Shown: positions 24,639-38,379 of the stretch, piece by piece | Layout of the letters: each line of letters opens with the position of its first letter | Numbering within the stretch: the stretch's first letter is position 1 | Assembly (NCBI RefSeq): GCF_000702165.1 | Contig: NZ_JNKU01000024.1 | Coordinates: forward strand, 1-41,491 | DNA: 41,491 bases | Origin: Sharpea azabuensis DSM 18934 | GTDB lineage: Bacteria; Bacillota_I; Bacilli_A; Erysipelotrichales; Coprobacillaceae | Reading direction: 5' to 3' | The notes under the pieces: model-generated | What the model was told of the DNA's origin: nothing | The model's input: the letters and a program-made list of their open reading frames with translations, nothing else | Databases searched by the model: none | Position numbers and translations under genes: made by a program

Positions 24639-27600
24639 CTAGTTAATAGCTTTTCCTTTTAGATCATAATATTTTCTTTCATTCACAACAATGAACCCTC
24701 TTGTATCAAGTTTCACAGGTTCTTCTGTTGAGAAAATGACTTTGAAGCCATTATCAGCATCATAAACATAATTACGACCATTTCTATTTAAGATCATATA
24801 ATTATTCTCATTGATATGAACAACTGCATCTTTCTTAAAGCTTGTACATTTATCTTCAAGCATTTCATCACCACTAGCACTTACAACAGTAAATGATCCA
24901 TCCGCCTTATAATGGGCATAATAGCCATCACCAATATAAGCAATTCTTTGTTTTGAAGCGAGAACTTCTTTACCTTCTTCATCAAGAAGAACATATTCAT
25001 GATTCTTCTTGATGGCAATAGCTGCACCTTCAACACCAAATGCCTGGGCATCAATGAAGACCTTATCAAAGGCTTTCTTGCCATTCATATCATAATATAC
25101 AAAACCCTTATCCTTAATATAAGCCGGATAAAGCTTGCCTTCTAAATAAGTAACAGCTGGCTTTAACTGGACATCTTTAAGTTTATTTGTCTTTTGACCA
25201 TTGACGACAAGATGTGGACCATAGACATATTGTTCATCACGTTTGAGATAATGTTCACTATCCTGATAGTAGGAATTGACTCTCACGCTTTGGCCTTTCT
25301 TGTTGATAAGATATGTACCAGTTGTATTTTCAAGAATGATATTGTCGTTGGAAAGGGAAGCTTTGGTTACTTCATGATCAACGCATTGAATCATTTTCTT
25401 CTTTGTATCGGCAACAATAGCTGCTTTATTATCTCCATCATAGAGTACAACCTGGTGATCATTACTTGCCATAATCTTATAATTACCACCTTCATCAATA
25501 GAAAGCGGCTTACTTAGCGCCTGAGACATGAAGATCTTAAGCTTATCATTGAAGACAATCACAAAGACATCTTCATTACCTAAAGTATACATAACTTCTT
25601 CTTTGCCCTTATAAAGGTCATCTTTTGTATCATAGAGAACACGGTAGATGCCTTTTTCATAAAGCACAGGAACAGCCGTCTTCTTGATGGCCACTTTCCC
25701 ATTTGCCTTATAAATGGTTTTTCTTTGGGCATTCATGATTGTTGTCTGACCATATGATAATGGGACATTCTTTGTTTTGACTAAAGTACGAGGATCACGT
25801 TTGACAATAAGGGTTGTCCGATAGACTTTATCACTAATGGTTGCACTGATGATTGCTTCACCGGCTTTGTAGGCTGTAATTGTCCCTGCTTCATCAACAC
25901 CAGCGACTTCAGGATAATCACTTGCCCAAGTTATATGCTGGTTCACAAGATTCTTGACTTGAATACTGCCCGTTGTCCCTTTTGTCAAAGTCATGGTATA
26001 AGGAACAGAGAGCTTTTCCTCTTTGACAATGAACTTACATTTAAGTGTTGAATCACCAGCCTGAACAGTCACAACATCCCAGCCTGGATTTAAAGCGCGC
26101 ACTTCACCCTTTTCATCAACTTCAATGATATTCTTCTTGCCGGTCTTAAAGCTTAAAGCACGCTTACCGGCATTCTTGACTTTCATCTGATAACTCTTCC
26201 CAAGCATCAATGTCTTTTCATTTTCATCAAGCGTAATATGGCGGTCCTTAACTGTAACTGTTGTTGTAAAAGTCTTACCTTCAGCAGAAAGTGTAATCTT
26301 TGTCTTACCTGATTTGATAGCTGTTAGTATACCATTATCAATCTTCGCAATCTTTTCATCATCACTCTTGTAAGTGACAGGGGCATCCGCTTTCACATGT
26401 CTTATGCCTTCCTTTGTCTGTTCATCTTCAGTCAGGACAATATTTTCTTTATTGAGAGAAAGGATACGTTTCTTAACAGTTATTTTTGATTGATATTTCT
26501 TATTGTCAATTGTTGCAGTAATAGTAGCAGTCCCCTTCTTCTTAGCTGTGACTAGACCATTATTGTCCACTTCAGCTACATCCTTCTTGTTTGAACACCA
26601 TGTAATAGGTGTATTAGGATCACTATTTTTTACTGATAACTGTAATGTTTCAAGTTCAGTTAAAGTCGCTTCTTTTTGACTGATGGCAACCTTGACATCA
26701 GAAACATGAACCTGGGCTTTAAGCTTACGTTTGCCCACAGTTGCTTTGATGGTTGTTGTTCCTTTCTTCAAGGCTTTCATCTTGCCATATGCATCAATGG
26801 ATACAAGATCAGGATTGGCTGATTGATATGTCACTGTTGTATTCGGTTTAAGATCTTTGATTTCAACATTTGTTTCCTGTCCAACAGTTAAGTCATAGTT
26901 TTTCTTTTTCAAACGTAGATCACGTTTTTTCACCGTAACGAGTACATTTATTTTCTGACTCATGACACTTGCCGTGATTGTCACCTTGCCAGCCTTCTTA
27001 GGTGTCACCTGCCCATTTTGATCAACCAGGGCTATTCTTTTATTTCCCGATGACCATTTCACCTTTTCTCCTTCACGAACACCATTTAAGTTTATCTTAA
27101 ATGGATCATCGTCTGCAAAGACTGTCTTCTTCTTGATATCAGCCGTTACTGTTGGTTCAGTTACTTCAACCTTCACCTTAAGTGTGTCATTACCTGTCTT
27201 GGCTTTGATGGTCGTTGTCCCCTTCTTTAAGGCTGTCAAATGACCATTTGCATCGATGGAAGCAATCTTGTCATCAGCACTTGACCATTTCACTTCACGA
27301 TTACGATTATCTAGCACAATGATATCTTGTGCTTTACCAACATCAAGCTTGATATGATCAGTAGATAATTTCGGAGTAATGGATGTCACTGTGATGAGGG
27401 CATCAACACTTTCATCACCCACCCGTGCTGTTATTGTTGCTTTTCCTGCCTTAATGGCATTCACAACACCATTTTGATCAACTGTCACAATCTTATTATT
27501 GGATGAAGTATAAACAGGAGTGCTTGTAGCATTCTGTAAATTCAGGGTTGTTGAAGTGAGTTCTTCTAGAGTTAGCTCATTCTTTTCAAATTGTAAGTTT

Positions 27601-27911
27601 GAAGATGGGGTATTATAGGTTGTTAGTAAGGTATTTGTGCCAGTGATATATTTATTATTGATGGTTTCCTTACCATTATAATCAATAAAACGATATTGAT
27701 CCTGTTTATTTTGTACAATATATCCCGCATTCTTAACTTCCTGATAGTTCTTATATTTGTAGTCGGTGAGCTTCTTGCCTTTTGTATTATATAATGCGTA
27801 GAGATTTCCAGCCTTATTTTTTGCCATAAATGTAATGGTTTCGCTCTTTGAGCCACTACAGCCACTTATTGCGAACGTTGCGACAAAAAGACCTGCTAAG
27901 ATACGTTTCAT
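24639..27911 (-). CDS. Large lipoprotein: eight Big_2 (Ig-like) domains inserted in a WG-repeat-like region
   Basis: 1090 residues. A lipoprotein signal peptide ends in the lipobox ISGC with lipid-modified C18, so it is anchored on the outer face of the membrane. Residues about 25-100 have WG/KWG-type short repeats (YALYNTKGKKLTDYKY, YRFIDYNGKETIN). About 110-690 are eight tandem bacterial Ig-like (Big_2) domains, each with the pattern 'vtW.S.dk.iA.vd.nG.vtA.kkGtatItA'. The C-terminal ~380 residues again show WG-like repeats (FVYYDMNGKKAFDKVF, YVLLDEEGKEVLAS, YYDLKGKAIN). No catalytic motif is seen. It is the first gene of an operon with the membrane methyltransferase-like protein. TAGGAGGA precedes ATG. 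Confidence 0.88.
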   Translation of the reverse strand: MKRILAGLFVATFAISGCSGSKSETITFMAKNKAGNLYALYNTKGKKLTDYKYKNYQEVKNAGYIVQNKQDQYRFIDYNGKETINNKYITGTNTLLTTYNTPSSNLQFEKNELTLEELTSTTLNLQNATSTPVYTSSNNKIVTVDQNGVVNAIKAGKATITARVGDESVDALITVTSITPKLSTDHIKLDVGKAQDIIVLDNRNREVKWSSADDKIASIDANGHLTALKKGTTTIKAKTGNDTLKVKVEVTEPTVTADIKKKTVFADDDPFKINLNGVREGEKVKWSSGNKRIALVDQNGQVTPKKAGKVTITASVMSQKINVLVTVKKRDLRLKKKNYDLTVGQETNVEIKDLKPNTTVTYQSANPDLVSIDAYGKMKALKKGTTTIKATVGKRKLKAQVHVSDVKVAISQKEATLTELETLQLSVKNSDPNTPITWCSNKKDVAEVDNNGLVTAKKKGTATITATIDNKKYQSKITVKKRILSLNKENIVLTEDEQTKEGIRHVKADAPVTYKSDDEKIAKIDNGILTAIKSGKTKITLSAEGKTFTTTVTVKDRHITLDENEKTLMLGKSYQMKVKNAGKRALSFKTGKKNIIEVDEKGEVRALNPGWDVVTVQAGDSTLKCKFIVKEEKLSVPYTMTLTKGTTGSIQVKNLVNQHITWASDYPEVAGVDEAGTITAYKAGEAIISATISDKVYRTTLIVKRDPRTLVKTKNVPLSYGQTTIMNAQRKTIYKANGKVAIKKTAVPVLYEKGIYRVLYDTKDDLYKGKEEVMYTLGNEDVFVIVFNDKLKIFMSQALSKPLSIDEGGNYKIMASNDHQVVLYDGDNKAAIVADTKKKMIQCVDHEVTKASLSNDNIILENTTGTYLINKKGQSVRVNSYYQDSEHYLKRDEQYVYGPHLVVNGQKTNKLKDVQLKPAVTYLEGKLYPAYIKDKGFVYYDMNGKKAFDKVFIDAQAFGVEGAAIAIKKNHEYVLLDEEGKEVLASKQRIAYIGDGYYAHYKADGSFTVVSASGDEMLEDKCTSFKKDAVVHINENNYMILNRNGRNYVYDADNGFKVIFSTEEPVKLDTRGFIVVNERKYYDLKGKAIN

Positions 27912-34105: not shown

Positions 34106-34265
34106 AATCTCACCTTCCATTAGATAGTCCAGAATCTAGTTTTTTAGAATGTAATACTTTAATTCTCCCACAACATTCTTTGCACAAAGCTTTTATATTA
34201 CTATAACAATGAATTACTATGTTTATTTATCAGTTCAAGAAGCTACACGCCAATTAGATATAAGA

Positions 34266-34300
34266 AGGACGGAATATTCCACTAAATGGCATTCCGTCCT
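34266..34300. repeat. Long hairpin in the 34106-34363 intergenic region
   Basis: AGGACGGAAT (34266-34275) / ATTCCGTCCT (34291-34300), a 10-bp perfect stem that can continue as TCCA / TGGC. No clear U-run follows on either strand. It lies about 65 bases beyond the end of the ATP-grasp operon on the minus transcript. The rest of the 258-base gap holds no other recognisable element. Confidence 0.45.
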
Positions 34301-34363
34301 CTAAATTCCAAGCTACTCAGTAATACAAAAGGAACCAAAGCATACACTTTATATAAATATATT

Positions 34364-35575
34364 TTATGACTTATCCTTTTTTGTGTAAGCATGCTGTGTG
34401 ATTTCATGCATGATTCTAAAGAGTTGTTCTTTGTTTTTTGTACGGAAGAGGAAGATATGGTCGCTCATTGCTTCAGCAAGTGCAGCATCCACATCATCTT
34501 CCAAGGCAATAAACTGGCCATAACGCTTGATGATTTGTTCATTACTTAAGGCATACTGAACATCATTACGTCTGCCCGCATAGCCAACCCAATACTGTCT
34601 ATTGATATCATAGAAACACTGATCATATAAAATCATATCAGCCCAGATTGTATAGACATCAACATCATAAGCTAAATTCATCATATCAGGAATATAGGCA
34701 CCCGGTGCTCTCATATTGACTTCTAATCCAACAAGATTGCCCTTTCTTCCTAAATAATCTTTATCTTCTGTCAAACGAATGAATTCGAAATGGAAGAAAC
34801 GACTCTTTGTGCCAAATGCTTTAACTGTTCTCTCCCCAATATCATAGATATCGGATGCAAAGACCGGCTGCTGATAGAAGGTTGTATCAAGATGCTCATT
34901 AACCATATCCATGACAGGATCACACATGACATGGGATGTTGACATGAGAATATTGCCCTGACTGTCAGTAATGCCTTCAAATGTTTCAACATTGCCTGGT
35001 ACATAGTCTTCGACAATAAACTGTGTTTCTTGATCAAGTGTTTGATAAATATTTCTAAAATCATCATCACTTGTCAGCTTGTAAGTACAGCTTGCCCCCA
35101 TACCGTCATCAGGCTTGACAATCACGGGATAGCCAACTTCCCTAGCGAAAGCTAGTCCTGTCTCTAAGCTATCTAAATAGGCATACTTGGCAACAGGTAT
35201 TCCTGCTCTTTGATAAACATCTTTCATCTTTGACTTATGACGTAACTGATCCATGTCTTCGAGTTTTGGTCCAGTTGTGACATTGAAGTCTGTACGTAAA
35301 TGTGCCTCAAGATAGAGCCAGTATTCATTCTCTGATTCAATCCAGTCAATCTTGCCATACTTAGCTGTATAGAAACCTACGGCACGATAGACATCTTCAT
35401 AGTCCTGGAGATCAGGAACGTAATAGTATTCGTCAAGAGCGTTCTTAGTATTATCATCAACACCATCATATGGTGTGTCACCAATACCTAGTACGCGTGC
35501 CCCTCTTTCTTTAAGACGCAGGCAGAAATTATAGTAATAATGTGGAAACTGCGGTGAAATGAAAATGACATTCAT
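34364..35575 (-). CDS. ATP-grasp ligase (paralogue 1 of a two-ligase operon)
   Basis: 403 residues. ATP-grasp fold: N-terminal preATP-grasp domain (MNVIFISPQFPHYYYNF...), DWIESENEYWLYLEA (77-91), HKSKMKDVYQRAGIPVAKY (113-131), the ATP lysine and Gly loop VIVKPDDGMGA (151-161), FIVEDYVPG (186-194), HFEF (262-265) and the metal ligands E285/N287 in LEVNMR. Such enzymes make acyl-phosphate intermediates and form amide, ester or thioester bonds. The acid and nucleophile are unknown. Closest similarity by eye is to the second ATP-grasp of the same operon. AGGAGG precedes ATG. Last gene of the operon; 11 bases after the esterase stop. Confidence 0.88.
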   Translation of the reverse strand: MNVIFISPQFPHYYYNFCLRLKERGARVLGIGDTPYDGVDDNTKNALDEYYYVPDLQDYEDVYRAVGFYTAKYGKIDWIESENEYWLYLEAHLRTDFNVTTGPKLEDMDQLRHKSKMKDVYQRAGIPVAKYAYLDSLETGLAFAREVGYPVIVKPDDGMGASCTYKLTSDDDFRNIYQTLDQETQFIVEDYVPGNVETFEGITDSQGNILMSTSHVMCDPVMDMVNEHLDTTFYQQPVFASDIYDIGERTVKAFGTKSRFFHFEFIRLTEDKDYLGRKGNLVGLEVNMRAPGAYIPDMMNLAYDVDVYTIWADMILYDQCFYDINRQYWVGYAGRRNDVQYALSNEQIIKRYGQFIALEDDVDAALAEAMSDHIFLFRTKNKEQLFRIMHEITQHAYTKKDKS

Positions 35576-35586
35576 TGAGAAACCTC

Positions 35587-36342
35587 CTAGATGACTCTCT
35601 CAAAGAAATAAGGTAACTGTACACGCCACCATGGCCAGTCATGGTTGACATCATAGCCCCAGAAATCAATCCAGGCAGGAATATTTTTTGCTTCTAAGAG
35701 TTCTTTCATACGACCTGTTGAACGCACCATATCATCTTCCCAGGCTCCCTGACCACAACATAGAACAATACGGCATCTTCTATATTTGTCGACAAATGGG
35801 TGGTCGTAGCTCATGCCCTGAAGATATTCTACTGGTGAATTACGATAAGTAATATCGTTGTGGAAATCACCAAAGAAAAGATCACTGTCATAATAACCTG
35901 ATAAAGCGACACAGCCCTTGAAGATATCTGGCGCTCTAAACATGAAGTTAGCGGCATGGGCTGCTCCCATCGAACATCCTGTGGTAATAATGCCATCGGC
36001 ATATCGTCCATCTTTCTTATTGATTTCAAAGATTCTTGGAACTAATTCATTGACAATATAATAATAGAATTGTTCAACGATATGTGTACGCTGCTCATAT
36101 GTTTCACCCGGCTGACCAGTCCAGCCTTCTCTATCCATTGAATCACAACAGAACATCTGAATTCTACCAGCATTAATTAAATGCGCAACAGATTCAATCA
36201 TGCCCTGGTTTTCAAAGTCATAGAAACGCCCATCCTGGCTAGGAAAAACTAAAACCGGTTCAGCTCCTTCTTCACCATAAACCTTAAATTCCATGTCTCT
36301 TTCAAGACACTGACTATACTCTTTAAAATATTGTGTTTTCAT
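35587..36342 (-). CDS. Putative esterase (COG4947-like), middle gene of the ATP-grasp operon
   Basis: 251 residues, no signal peptide. Alpha/beta hydrolase of the D-family esterase (COG4947) type: LVFPSQDGRFYDFENQGM (31-48), SMDREGW (68-74), nucleophile elbow GCSMG (122-126) with Ser124, and C-terminal VNHDWPWWR with His234. An acid near 202-204 (WEDD) completes the likely triad. It could cleave an ester or thioester, or transfer an acyl group. Start ATG at 36342 is preceded by GGAGG with six bases; an ATG six bases earlier lies on the ribosome site. Twelve bases from the upstream ATP-grasp, 11 to the next: a tight operon. Confidence 0.82.
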   Translation of the reverse strand: MKTQYFKEYSQCLERDMEFKVYGEEGAEPVLVFPSQDGRFYDFENQGMIESVAHLINAGRIQMFCCDSMDREGWTGQPGETYEQRTHIVEQFYYYIVNELVPRIFEINKKDGRYADGIITTGCSMGAAHAANFMFRAPDIFKGCVALSGYYDSDLFFGDFHNDITYRNSPVEYLQGMSYDHPFVDKYRRCRIVLCCGQGAWEDDMVRSTGRMKELLEAKNIPAWIDFWGYDVNHDWPWWRVQLPYFFERVI

Positions 36343-36354
36343 AAGCATCCTCCA

Positions 36355-37539
36355 TTAACCTAATACAAATTCAATAAATGCATTCACTTCATCCATTGTT
36401 TCGAAACGTGCTGTATACATGTCATTACCCATATCATCACTCAAGATATCTGGCATTCTTTCTATCATCACGAGATCATGATGATATCTTTTCTTGATTT
36501 CTTCATCCGTATGTTTATAGGCAATCTCGTCACGTCTACCTGTATAGACACAATGGTATGGTCTCCTATTTCTATTATAGTGACTTTCTCCAGTTGTGAC
36601 CATATCTGCATAAATATCATAAACATTTATGTCATTAGCCCAGTTCATCATATCAGGTGTATAACCCCCTGGCATACGCATATTGACTTCCAAGCCGACA
36701 ACATCACCTTTGTTGGCAAGGCCTGGTTTGTCTTTTGTCAGTCTGAAGAACTCCATGTGGAAACAACGGCCATTGACCGGAAAGGCTTTGACTGCTTCTT
36801 CCCCATAGTGTTTTAAGTCTTCTGGTATTTCTCGTTGTGAATAATAAACAAATGATTTATTTGATGTCACAACATCTAATAATGGATCTGGAAAGACATG
36901 ACTTGTTTCAAAGATAATGTCATGGTTTTGTGAAGCAATGCCATCAAACGACTCAATAACCCCTTCTACAAACTCTTCCATAATATACTGTACATCGGAT
37001 TTATGTTCAAAGAAGTCCACAAGTTCTTCTTCATTATTAATCTTATGTGTATCCTGAGCACCCATGCCACTATCAGGCTTGGCAATAACAGGATAAGCCA
37101 CTTCATCGATAAAGGCTTTCGCTTCATCAATTGTTGTGACGAGAATATAACGGGCTGTAGGAATATGTGCCTTGGCATAATAATCCTTCATTCTTGATTT
37201 GTGTTTGACATCTTCAATAATGTCATTCTGTAAGCCAGTTGTAATATTGAAATCTGTACGCAAGCGCGCATCACTTTCCAGCCAGTATTCATTATTGCTT
37301 TCAAGATAATCAATGCGGCCATAATGAAAAATAAAATATCCCATTGCTTTCACTAAGGCATCATAGTCTTCAAGCGTATCAACATAATAATATTCCTTAA
37401 ATGAATGTTTAACTTCTTCACTCAGTTCATCATATGGTACATCCCCAATCGCAAGAACATTAACCCCCTGCTCCTGCAAGCTTTCACAAAAATGATAATA
37501 TGTTTTTGGAAAGCCAGGTGAAATAAACACAAAATTCAT
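36355..37539 (-). CDS. ATP-grasp ligase (paralogue 2), first gene of the operon
   Basis: 394 residues; same domain order as the third gene with the same residue numbering through position 160 (e.g. MNFVFISPGFPKTYYHF; DYLESNNEYWLESDA; HKSRMKDYYAKAHIPTARY; VIAKPDSGMGA; LEVNMRMPGGY). All ATP-grasp catalytic positions seen in paralogue 1 are conserved, so both are probably active, differing in substrate. AAGGGGGAT precedes ATG, and TGC-TATACT (37564-37572) upstream is a probable extended -10. No acyl carrier, adenylation domain or transporter gene lies in the window. Confidence 0.88.
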   Translation of the reverse strand: MNFVFISPGFPKTYYHFCESLQEQGVNVLAIGDVPYDELSEEVKHSFKEYYYVDTLEDYDALVKAMGYFIFHYGRIDYLESNNEYWLESDARLRTDFNITTGLQNDIIEDVKHKSRMKDYYAKAHIPTARYILVTTIDEAKAFIDEVAYPVIAKPDSGMGAQDTHKINNEEELVDFFEHKSDVQYIMEEFVEGVIESFDGIASQNHDIIFETSHVFPDPLLDVVTSNKSFVYYSQREIPEDLKHYGEEAVKAFPVNGRCFHMEFFRLTKDKPGLANKGDVVGLEVNMRMPGGYTPDMMNWANDINVYDIYADMVTTGESHYNRNRRPYHCVYTGRRDEIAYKHTDEEIKKRYHHDLVMIERMPDILSDDMGNDMYTARFETMDEVNAFIEFVLG

Positions 37540-37572: not shown

Positions 37573-37672
37573 TTTTTTGTATCAATGCACTAATGTTTTA
37601 TTATATTTCTAACTCAACATTCAATATTTATGATAATACGAATACTTTCATCAATTTTATACTTATCCAGAC

Positions 37673-37708
37673 AAAAGACTAGAGACACTATACTGTCTCT
37701 AGTCTTTT
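37673..37708 (-). terminator. Strong terminator-like inverted repeat
   Basis: AAAAGACTAGAGACA / TGTCTCTAGTCTTTT, a perfect 15-bp inverted repeat with a 6-nt loop. It includes the stop codon of the helical protein gene on the minus strand, and a short T-run follows. Confidence 0.85.
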
Positions 37709-38379
37709 AATGAGGTCTTGAATTTCATAAAAGTAACCGACATCACCAACACAAAATAATCATCTAACAGCTCTCTAAGACGGCTTGCTGCTTCTTCTTT
37801 TAGTTCACGGCTGTCCTTTTTCGTAAGGATCTTACCTAGACGTGACAAAGCGCCTTTCTTAGAAGAGGTTTGAAGAAGCGTTGTCACATCCCCAATGGCT
37901 AATGTCTGGTAGGGATGATAGGCTTGAATGAATTGTTGATAACTTACATCCTGTCCCAATGTTGAAAAGTCTGTTTGATGATTGAGGCTTTGAGCGATAT
38001 TACAATAAAGATTTAATATCGCAAAGCATGAACCATAGATATCATCATAGCTAATTTCAAAATGTGAATAGTTATTCTCATAGCGATCAATCTTTTCAAC
38101 AAGATTATGGGCAAAGCGCGCAAAGGAAGGTGAATAGCCATGTTCAGTTCTCTTCGCAAATTCCTCAAAATGCGCATTAAGCTTTAAGGCTTCAAAAATA
38201 ATCTTGTCTTCAAACATATCATTGGTCAGACGATTTATATCCTCTAAATCATGAGCAACACGCATAAGCAGAACCTTCTTGCTCAGAGATATGCATTCTT
38301 CACTTTGAGCACTCCAGACTGGAAACATCACATCATCCATCTCACCGACAAGCACATCACAATATAAATCATAATTCAT
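37699..38379 (-). CDS. Helical protein of unknown function
   Basis: 226 residues, predicted largely alpha-helical with no membrane segment or signal. It contains NLVEKIDRYENNYSHFEISYDD, LNLYCNIAQSLNHQTDF and a C-terminal basic region (KKGALSRLGKILTKKDSRELKEE). No family recognised. It follows the HTH gene by nine bases, so the pair is one operon; the gene may be regulated by, or partner with, that small HTH protein. Confidence 0.6.
   Translation of the reverse strand: MNYDLYCDVLVGEMDDVMFPVWSAQSEECISLSKKVLLMRVAHDLEDINRLTNDMFEDKIIFEALKLNAHFEEFAKRTEHGYSPSFARFAHNLVEKIDRYENNYSHFEISYDDIYGSCFAILNLYCNIAQSLNHQTDFSTLGQDVSYQQFIQAYHPYQTLAIGDVTTLLQTSSKKGALSRLGKILTKKDSRELKEEAASRLRELLDDYFVLVMSVTFMKFKTSLKD

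Follow-up and report, generated by a model that had tools for sequence, protein, structure and literature searches.

A widespread ATP-grasp ligase–esterase module and its two-ligase version in the family of Sharpea azabuensis

A compact three-gene operon

The window, that is the whole 41,491-nucleotide stretch of Sharpea azabuensis DSM 18934 DNA that was analysed, carries on its minus strand a compact operon in which two ATP-grasp ligase genes flank a gene for a serine hydrolase, in the order LigA–Est–LigB (Table 1). Read from its first ATG, the Est open reading frame spans 35587-36348 (minus strand); the likelier true start is the second ATG, at 36342, judging from the position of the GGAGG ribosome-binding site and the N-terminus shared by the family in alignments, and with this start the intergenic gaps are exactly 12 and 11 bases. 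Terminator-like hairpins lie on both sides of the genes, and both fold far better than shuffled sequence, against which their z values are calculated; with such strong hairpins at either end, the operon appears to consist of LigA, Est and LigB and nothing else.

Table 1. Features of the operon and its limits, in window coordinates
Feature	Coordinates	Strand	Description and basis
LigA	36355..37539	-	394-aa ATP-grasp ligase, first gene of the operon; ORF and PF02786 match above cut-off
Est	35587..36342	-	About 251-aa cytosolic alpha/beta hydrolase, PF00756; start at the second ATG, inferred
LigB	34364..35575	-	403-aa ATP-grasp ligase, paralogue of LigA
Est ribosome-binding site	about 36349..36353	-	GGAGG; sequence
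LigB ribosome-binding site	35581..35590 (approximate)	-	AGGAGG-type, at the Est stop codon; sequence
Upstream hairpin	37672..37709	-	Terminator-like, of the upstream gene, before LigA; RNA fold -25 kcal/mol, z -5.0; bounds the operon upstream
Downstream hairpin	34265..34302	-	Terminator-like, follows LigB; RNA fold -21.5 kcal/mol, z -3.1; bounds the operon downstream

Directly upstream of the operon, positions 37699-38379 (minus strand) encode a 226-aa protein that has no Pfam or NCBIfam match, and a 226-aa gene is found at the equivalent place within the same genus. Elsewhere in the window, positions 24639-27911 (minus strand) encode a 1090-aa, probably surface-exposed protein with repeated bacterial Ig-like (Big_2) domains, adjoining a 360-aa protein that has no Pfam match.

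The ligases LigA and LigB

LigA and LigB share 43% identity over 386 aligned residues with only 2 gap positions, and all the ATP-grasp residues (K114, K154, E188, E263 and E284-x-N286-x-R288 in LigA numbering) are intact in both. The residues for ATP and Mg (two Lys, Glu and the E-x-N-x-R motif) are invariant in 58 of 58 ligase relatives, LigA and LigB included. Fifteen fixed differences separate the two proteins, none of them at an ATP or metal residue; from LigA to LigB they include the change of G292 to A, four residues beyond the catalytic R288, and of D90 to E, within a motif of the N-domain. In the ligase BL00235, specificity is governed by an N-domain residue, P85 (PMC6920838).

None of the three proteins reaches a curated NCBIfam model, and the only matches are sub-threshold, generic ATP-grasp ones. 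A profile built from the 58 ligases finds as its first match the L-amino-acid ligase RizA (E 2.9e-25). The AlphaFold2 model of LigA (pLDDT 94) resembles most closely, in the PDB, BL00235 (3vot, Z 31.2) and RizA (4wd3, Z 30.8), with PurK (Z 27.9) below them and biotin carboxylase also following closely; the pre-ATP-grasp N-domain and ATP-grasp fold of the RizA/BacD type are matched over the full length of LigA (residues 1-394). By profile and modelled fold, the nearest relatives of LigA and LigB are the L-amino-acid ligases RizA, BL00235 and BacD. As carboxylases and other ligases also belong to the ATP-grasp group, and as identity is 15-19%, amide chemistry is suggested by similarity, and the fold matches speak to it by analogy.

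The esterase Est

Est matches PF00756 with 44.2 bits against a cut-off of 22 bits. The GCSMG nucleophile S126, together with H236 and an HDWPWW motif, is invariant across 45 relatives (253-aa numbering), and the acid residue of the active site would be E204 or a neighbour. The best PDB matches of its AlphaFold2 model (pLDDT 97) are feruloyl esterases and S-formylglutathione hydrolases; the resemblance to the latter is one of fold, since Est has no NCBIfam match to the S-formylglutathione hydrolase family model at E 0.01. Est is probably an enzyme cutting ester bonds, its chemistry, like that of the ligases, being suggested by structural analogy.

A first-pass annotation, made from the DNA letters, had described a self-contained operon with gaps of 12 and 11 bases, in which a GCSMG serine hydrolase stands between two paralogous ATP-grasp ligases that keep the ATP lysine and the metal ligands. 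The reading frames with the second-ATG start of Est, the bounding hairpins, the PF00756 match and the intact ligase residues agree with this description in every part. The annotation had also called the hydrolase a COG4947-type esterase; the membership established here is that of PF00756. The annotation had allowed that the two ligases might prove unrelated, and their full-length identity establishes them as paralogues; the common register that it had traced through residue 160 is real and extends well beyond that residue, the alignment covering 386 residues.

Conservation and distribution of the ligase–esterase pair

Est is present in 35 of 36 good genomes of the family of the source organism and in 141 of 188 in the order; its near-universal presence in the family indicates that the unit is more than a chance association. 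In a scan of named genomes, relatives of the ligases occur in nine named phyla, Bacillota, Thermodesulfobacteriota, Chloroflexota, Myxococcota and Pseudomonadota among them. The scan sampled 84 ligase loci, four of them on plasmids; ligase and Est lie adjacent on the same strand in 58, with a median gap of 12 bases and across six named phyla, and the other 26 have no adjacent same-strand Est. Plasmids of Peptoclostridium and Pararhizobium bear the pair, and Tetragenococcus halophilus and a Paenibacillus soil strain are further examples of bacteria that have it. The gene trees of ligase and esterase agree in outline, and in both the pair of Pasteurellaceae and Bergeriella (loci L150, L151, L155, L156, L164 and L187) is nested among Streptococcus-type sequences, a pattern suggesting that ligase and esterase were transferred together.

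The association has exceptions and additions. In one family (f8) the ligase is present and Est was not detected, from which it follows that Est is not always needed; in another (f14) Est is present and does not adjoin the ligase. In the sister family the arrangement is LigA-Est, often with Est2, a second PF00756 esterase that has no detectable pairwise similarity to Est. When neighbouring genes were clustered over 124 loci, and over another 40 from the sister family, the Est2 family was the only neighbour to recur beyond position effects; a universal third partner is thereby rejected, and the ATP synthase genes near the f8 loci are a position effect.

Other assignments were tried and discarded. 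The conservation of the ligase–esterase unit dismisses a lone local oddity, an anti-phage defence system is set aside because PADLOC returned no match, and the sub-threshold, generic NCBIfam matches attach the genes to no known pathway. Literature searches for COG4947 together with ATP-grasp, and for operons that join an ATP-grasp enzyme and an esterase, turned up no account of the pair, which may nevertheless have been mentioned earlier, and no name or assigned product for it appeared in the sources searched. The component superfamilies are known; their pairing and the repeated expansion of the ligases are without description in the literature searched.

Two-ligase forms and their origin

The family of the source organism mostly has the LigA-Est-LigB arrangement, and in its sister family an Est gene is mostly accompanied by a single ligase. 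LigB forms a clade confined to the former (support 100/100), and LigA groups with the sister-family ligases. A tree that joins LigA and LigB of the family in one clade is not rejected (AU p 0.088), so that the duplication could date far back or could be both recent and fast. Two-ligase operons occur also in g231, in genome G539, in Desulfobacterota and in Thermoflexales, and their second ligases differ in tree placement: that of G539 and that of Thermoflexales are local duplicates, that of Desulfobacterota is a long separate branch, and that of g231 belongs to a third clade. Of all forms of the module observed, the four-gene operon LIG-EST-EST2-LIG of g231 (L295, L308) is the most complete. 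Operons with two ligases seem to have originated on several occasions, and the one in the window is the two-ligase form, specific to its family, of a ligase–esterase module that is widespread.

The first-pass annotation had read the two ligases as two steps using different substrates. In such a pathway LigA and then LigB would act in sequence, and Est would release or edit the product; the operon order, fixed in most genera of the family, suits this scheme, as do the active sites of LigA and LigB, which are intact but diverged. However, six loci of the family that were checked have Est-LigB without LigA upstream, genome G003 has LigA-Est with LigB elsewhere, the sister family mostly makes do with a single ligase, and second ligases differ in origin between lineages. 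Since each ligase is found in places where the other is missing, a pathway that always needs both steps is disfavoured; the sequential scheme is unlikely and was not borne out as the annotation stated it. With ligases missing or unlinked in various loci, Est is the constant element around which the ligases vary; a constant Est with either ligase dispensable is more easily reconciled with ligases of parallel specificity than with two compulsory consecutive steps, a reading based on the presence and absence of genes. The earlier interpretation is therefore partly supported: besides the change in the relation of the two ligases, the absence of any known pathway is upheld, and the co-occurrence across genomes that it had suggested checking yields a conserved ligase–esterase unit.

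Proposed function and mechanism

The reading preferred here, to which we give roughly even odds (about 0.5), is that the module combines an amide ligase of the amino-acid type and a cytosolic esterase dedicated to it, and that a second ligase widens the substrate range. For this module we infer an amide chemistry, a role for Est and a division of labour between LigA and LigB as follows. Each ligase would bind Mg-ATP and convert a carboxylate to an acyl phosphate, which it would then join to an amine in the manner of L-amino-acid ligases; the carboxylate would most likely belong to an amino acid or small peptide. Est, as a cytosolic serine hydrolase, would act on an ester or thioester bond carried by the ligase's substrate or product and cleave it either to set the final amide free or to edit mis-made esters. 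LigB would be a duplicate whose substrate pocket has changed with divergence, so that a single Est serves a wider set of products.

The constant pairing with one, often two, PF00756 esterases could also mean that the ligases themselves form esters of the depsipeptide type, or take hydroxyl substrates, and that Est is a dedicated editing or recycling hydrolase. The nearest characterised ligases, however, make amides (PMC6920838), and family f8 has ligases without any Est; this alternative is very unlikely. A pair kept across phyla and in 35 of 36 good genomes of its own family, with repeated gains of a ligase, must make or process something useful. The ligase–esterase module is also a tractable target: its two or three enzymes are soluble, their active sites are clear, and the assays to use are obvious.

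Neighbouring genes of thiol metabolism

A more specific alternative arises from neighbours of the pair in a few lineages. The ligase may build a peptide derived from cysteine or gamma-glutamylcysteine, and Est may hydrolyse its S-acyl (for example S-formyl) adducts, the role that S-formylglutathione hydrolase has for glutathione. In genus g8 all 4 genomes have GshA beside a LIG-EST copy, and in the two loci read an EgtC-like GATase separates GshA from LIG-EST; in Ligilactobacillus agilis the order is EST-LIG-PuuD-like (gamma-glutamyl hydrolase-like) hydrolase-GshA, but these genes are split into several frames in the assembly used. Every GshA match in 2.07 Mb of loci falls within 1 kb of the ligase–esterase core. 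LIG-EST is followed by CysK-CysE in g25, a serine acetyltransferase lies near EST in six loci of f14, and the fold of Est is near that of S-formylglutathione hydrolase, although its similarity to feruloyl esterases is equally strong. Against this, the thiol-gene neighbours were noticed after the fact, most ligase–esterase loci have none, and the genome of S. azabuensis contains no match to the GshA of g8. Because the neighbours are confined to few lineages, were found after looking and lack that counterpart in the source genome, the thiol explanation is rated between distinctly and very unlikely, its upper grade going to the chemistry just described. Its fuller form would be a long shot: in anaerobic bacteria of gut and sediment, the module would make and maintain a low-molecular-weight thiol, or a dipeptide containing cysteine, that has yet to be described; which residue is attached would depend on the ligases, and S-acyl adducts would be taken off by the esterase or esterases. 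Were the hint true, a new redox metabolite of the cell would be indicated; were it wrong, the module would still define a new branch of natural dipeptide-type ligases.

Several of these loci have features of their own. The g8 cassette GshA - EgtC-like GATase_4 - LIG - EST (L067, L068) is a second copy besides a normal triplet, and in G008 its ligase is interrupted by a stop codon. At L223:7084-9225 (G011), an EgtC-like class II glutamine amidotransferase is fused to a plant-type glutamate-cysteine ligase domain; the fusion gene adjoins a second GshA and has no ligase–esterase pair beside it. The f14 loci with Est near a serine O-acetyltransferase are L264-L267, L270 and L271, and in g69 Est is also beside a spermidine/putrescine-type ABC transporter.

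Comparison with known systems

Graspetides are peptides tailored by ATP-grasp ligases (PMC8939145), and the module shares this type of ligase with them, which raises the question as to whether it could be a graspetide-like system that tailors peptides or proteins. Among open reading frames of at least 60 aa beside the ligases, the esterases are the only recurrent neighbours, and no recurrent short gene, precursor peptide, leader peptidase or transporter accompanies the module; the ligase is closest in sequence and fold to enzymes acting on free amino acids, and the text of the graspetide survey mentions neither RizA, nor L-amino acid ligase, nor Erysipelotrichales. A tailoring system of this kind is extremely unlikely.

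The operons of gamma-glutamylcysteine or ergothioneine type are approached by the g8 copy of LIG-EST, which sits with GshA and the EgtC-like GATase, and by the L. agilis locus, which has GshA and a gamma-glutamyl hydrolase nearby; in contrast to ergothioneine-type operons, no EgtB or EgtD was identified among the neighbours of LIG-EST, and genes of the gamma-glutamylcysteine type are absent from most LIG-EST loci, the window included.

The L-amino-acid alpha-ligases (RizA 4wd3, BL00235 3vot and BacD/YwfE 3vmm) are like LigA in full-length fold (Z 26-31) and in ATP-grasp catalytic residues, and RizA and BL00235 are also similar in length. Yet identity across the structural alignment is only 15-19%, and the LigA family has invariant motifs of its own, ESNNEYWLE and EVNMRPPGG, and esterase partners in its operons; for this family dipeptide activity is at most predicted. 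Est, in turn, matches feruloyl esterases (5vol, 7xrt) and S-formylglutathione hydrolase (7l0a, 3e4d) over its full length (Z 21-25) and has the GxSxG serine and catalytic histidine of PF00756/CE1 esterases, but its identity to those matches is 13-18%, and it is set apart from the known enzymes by its HDWPWW motif around the histidine and by the pairing of its gene with that of a ligase.
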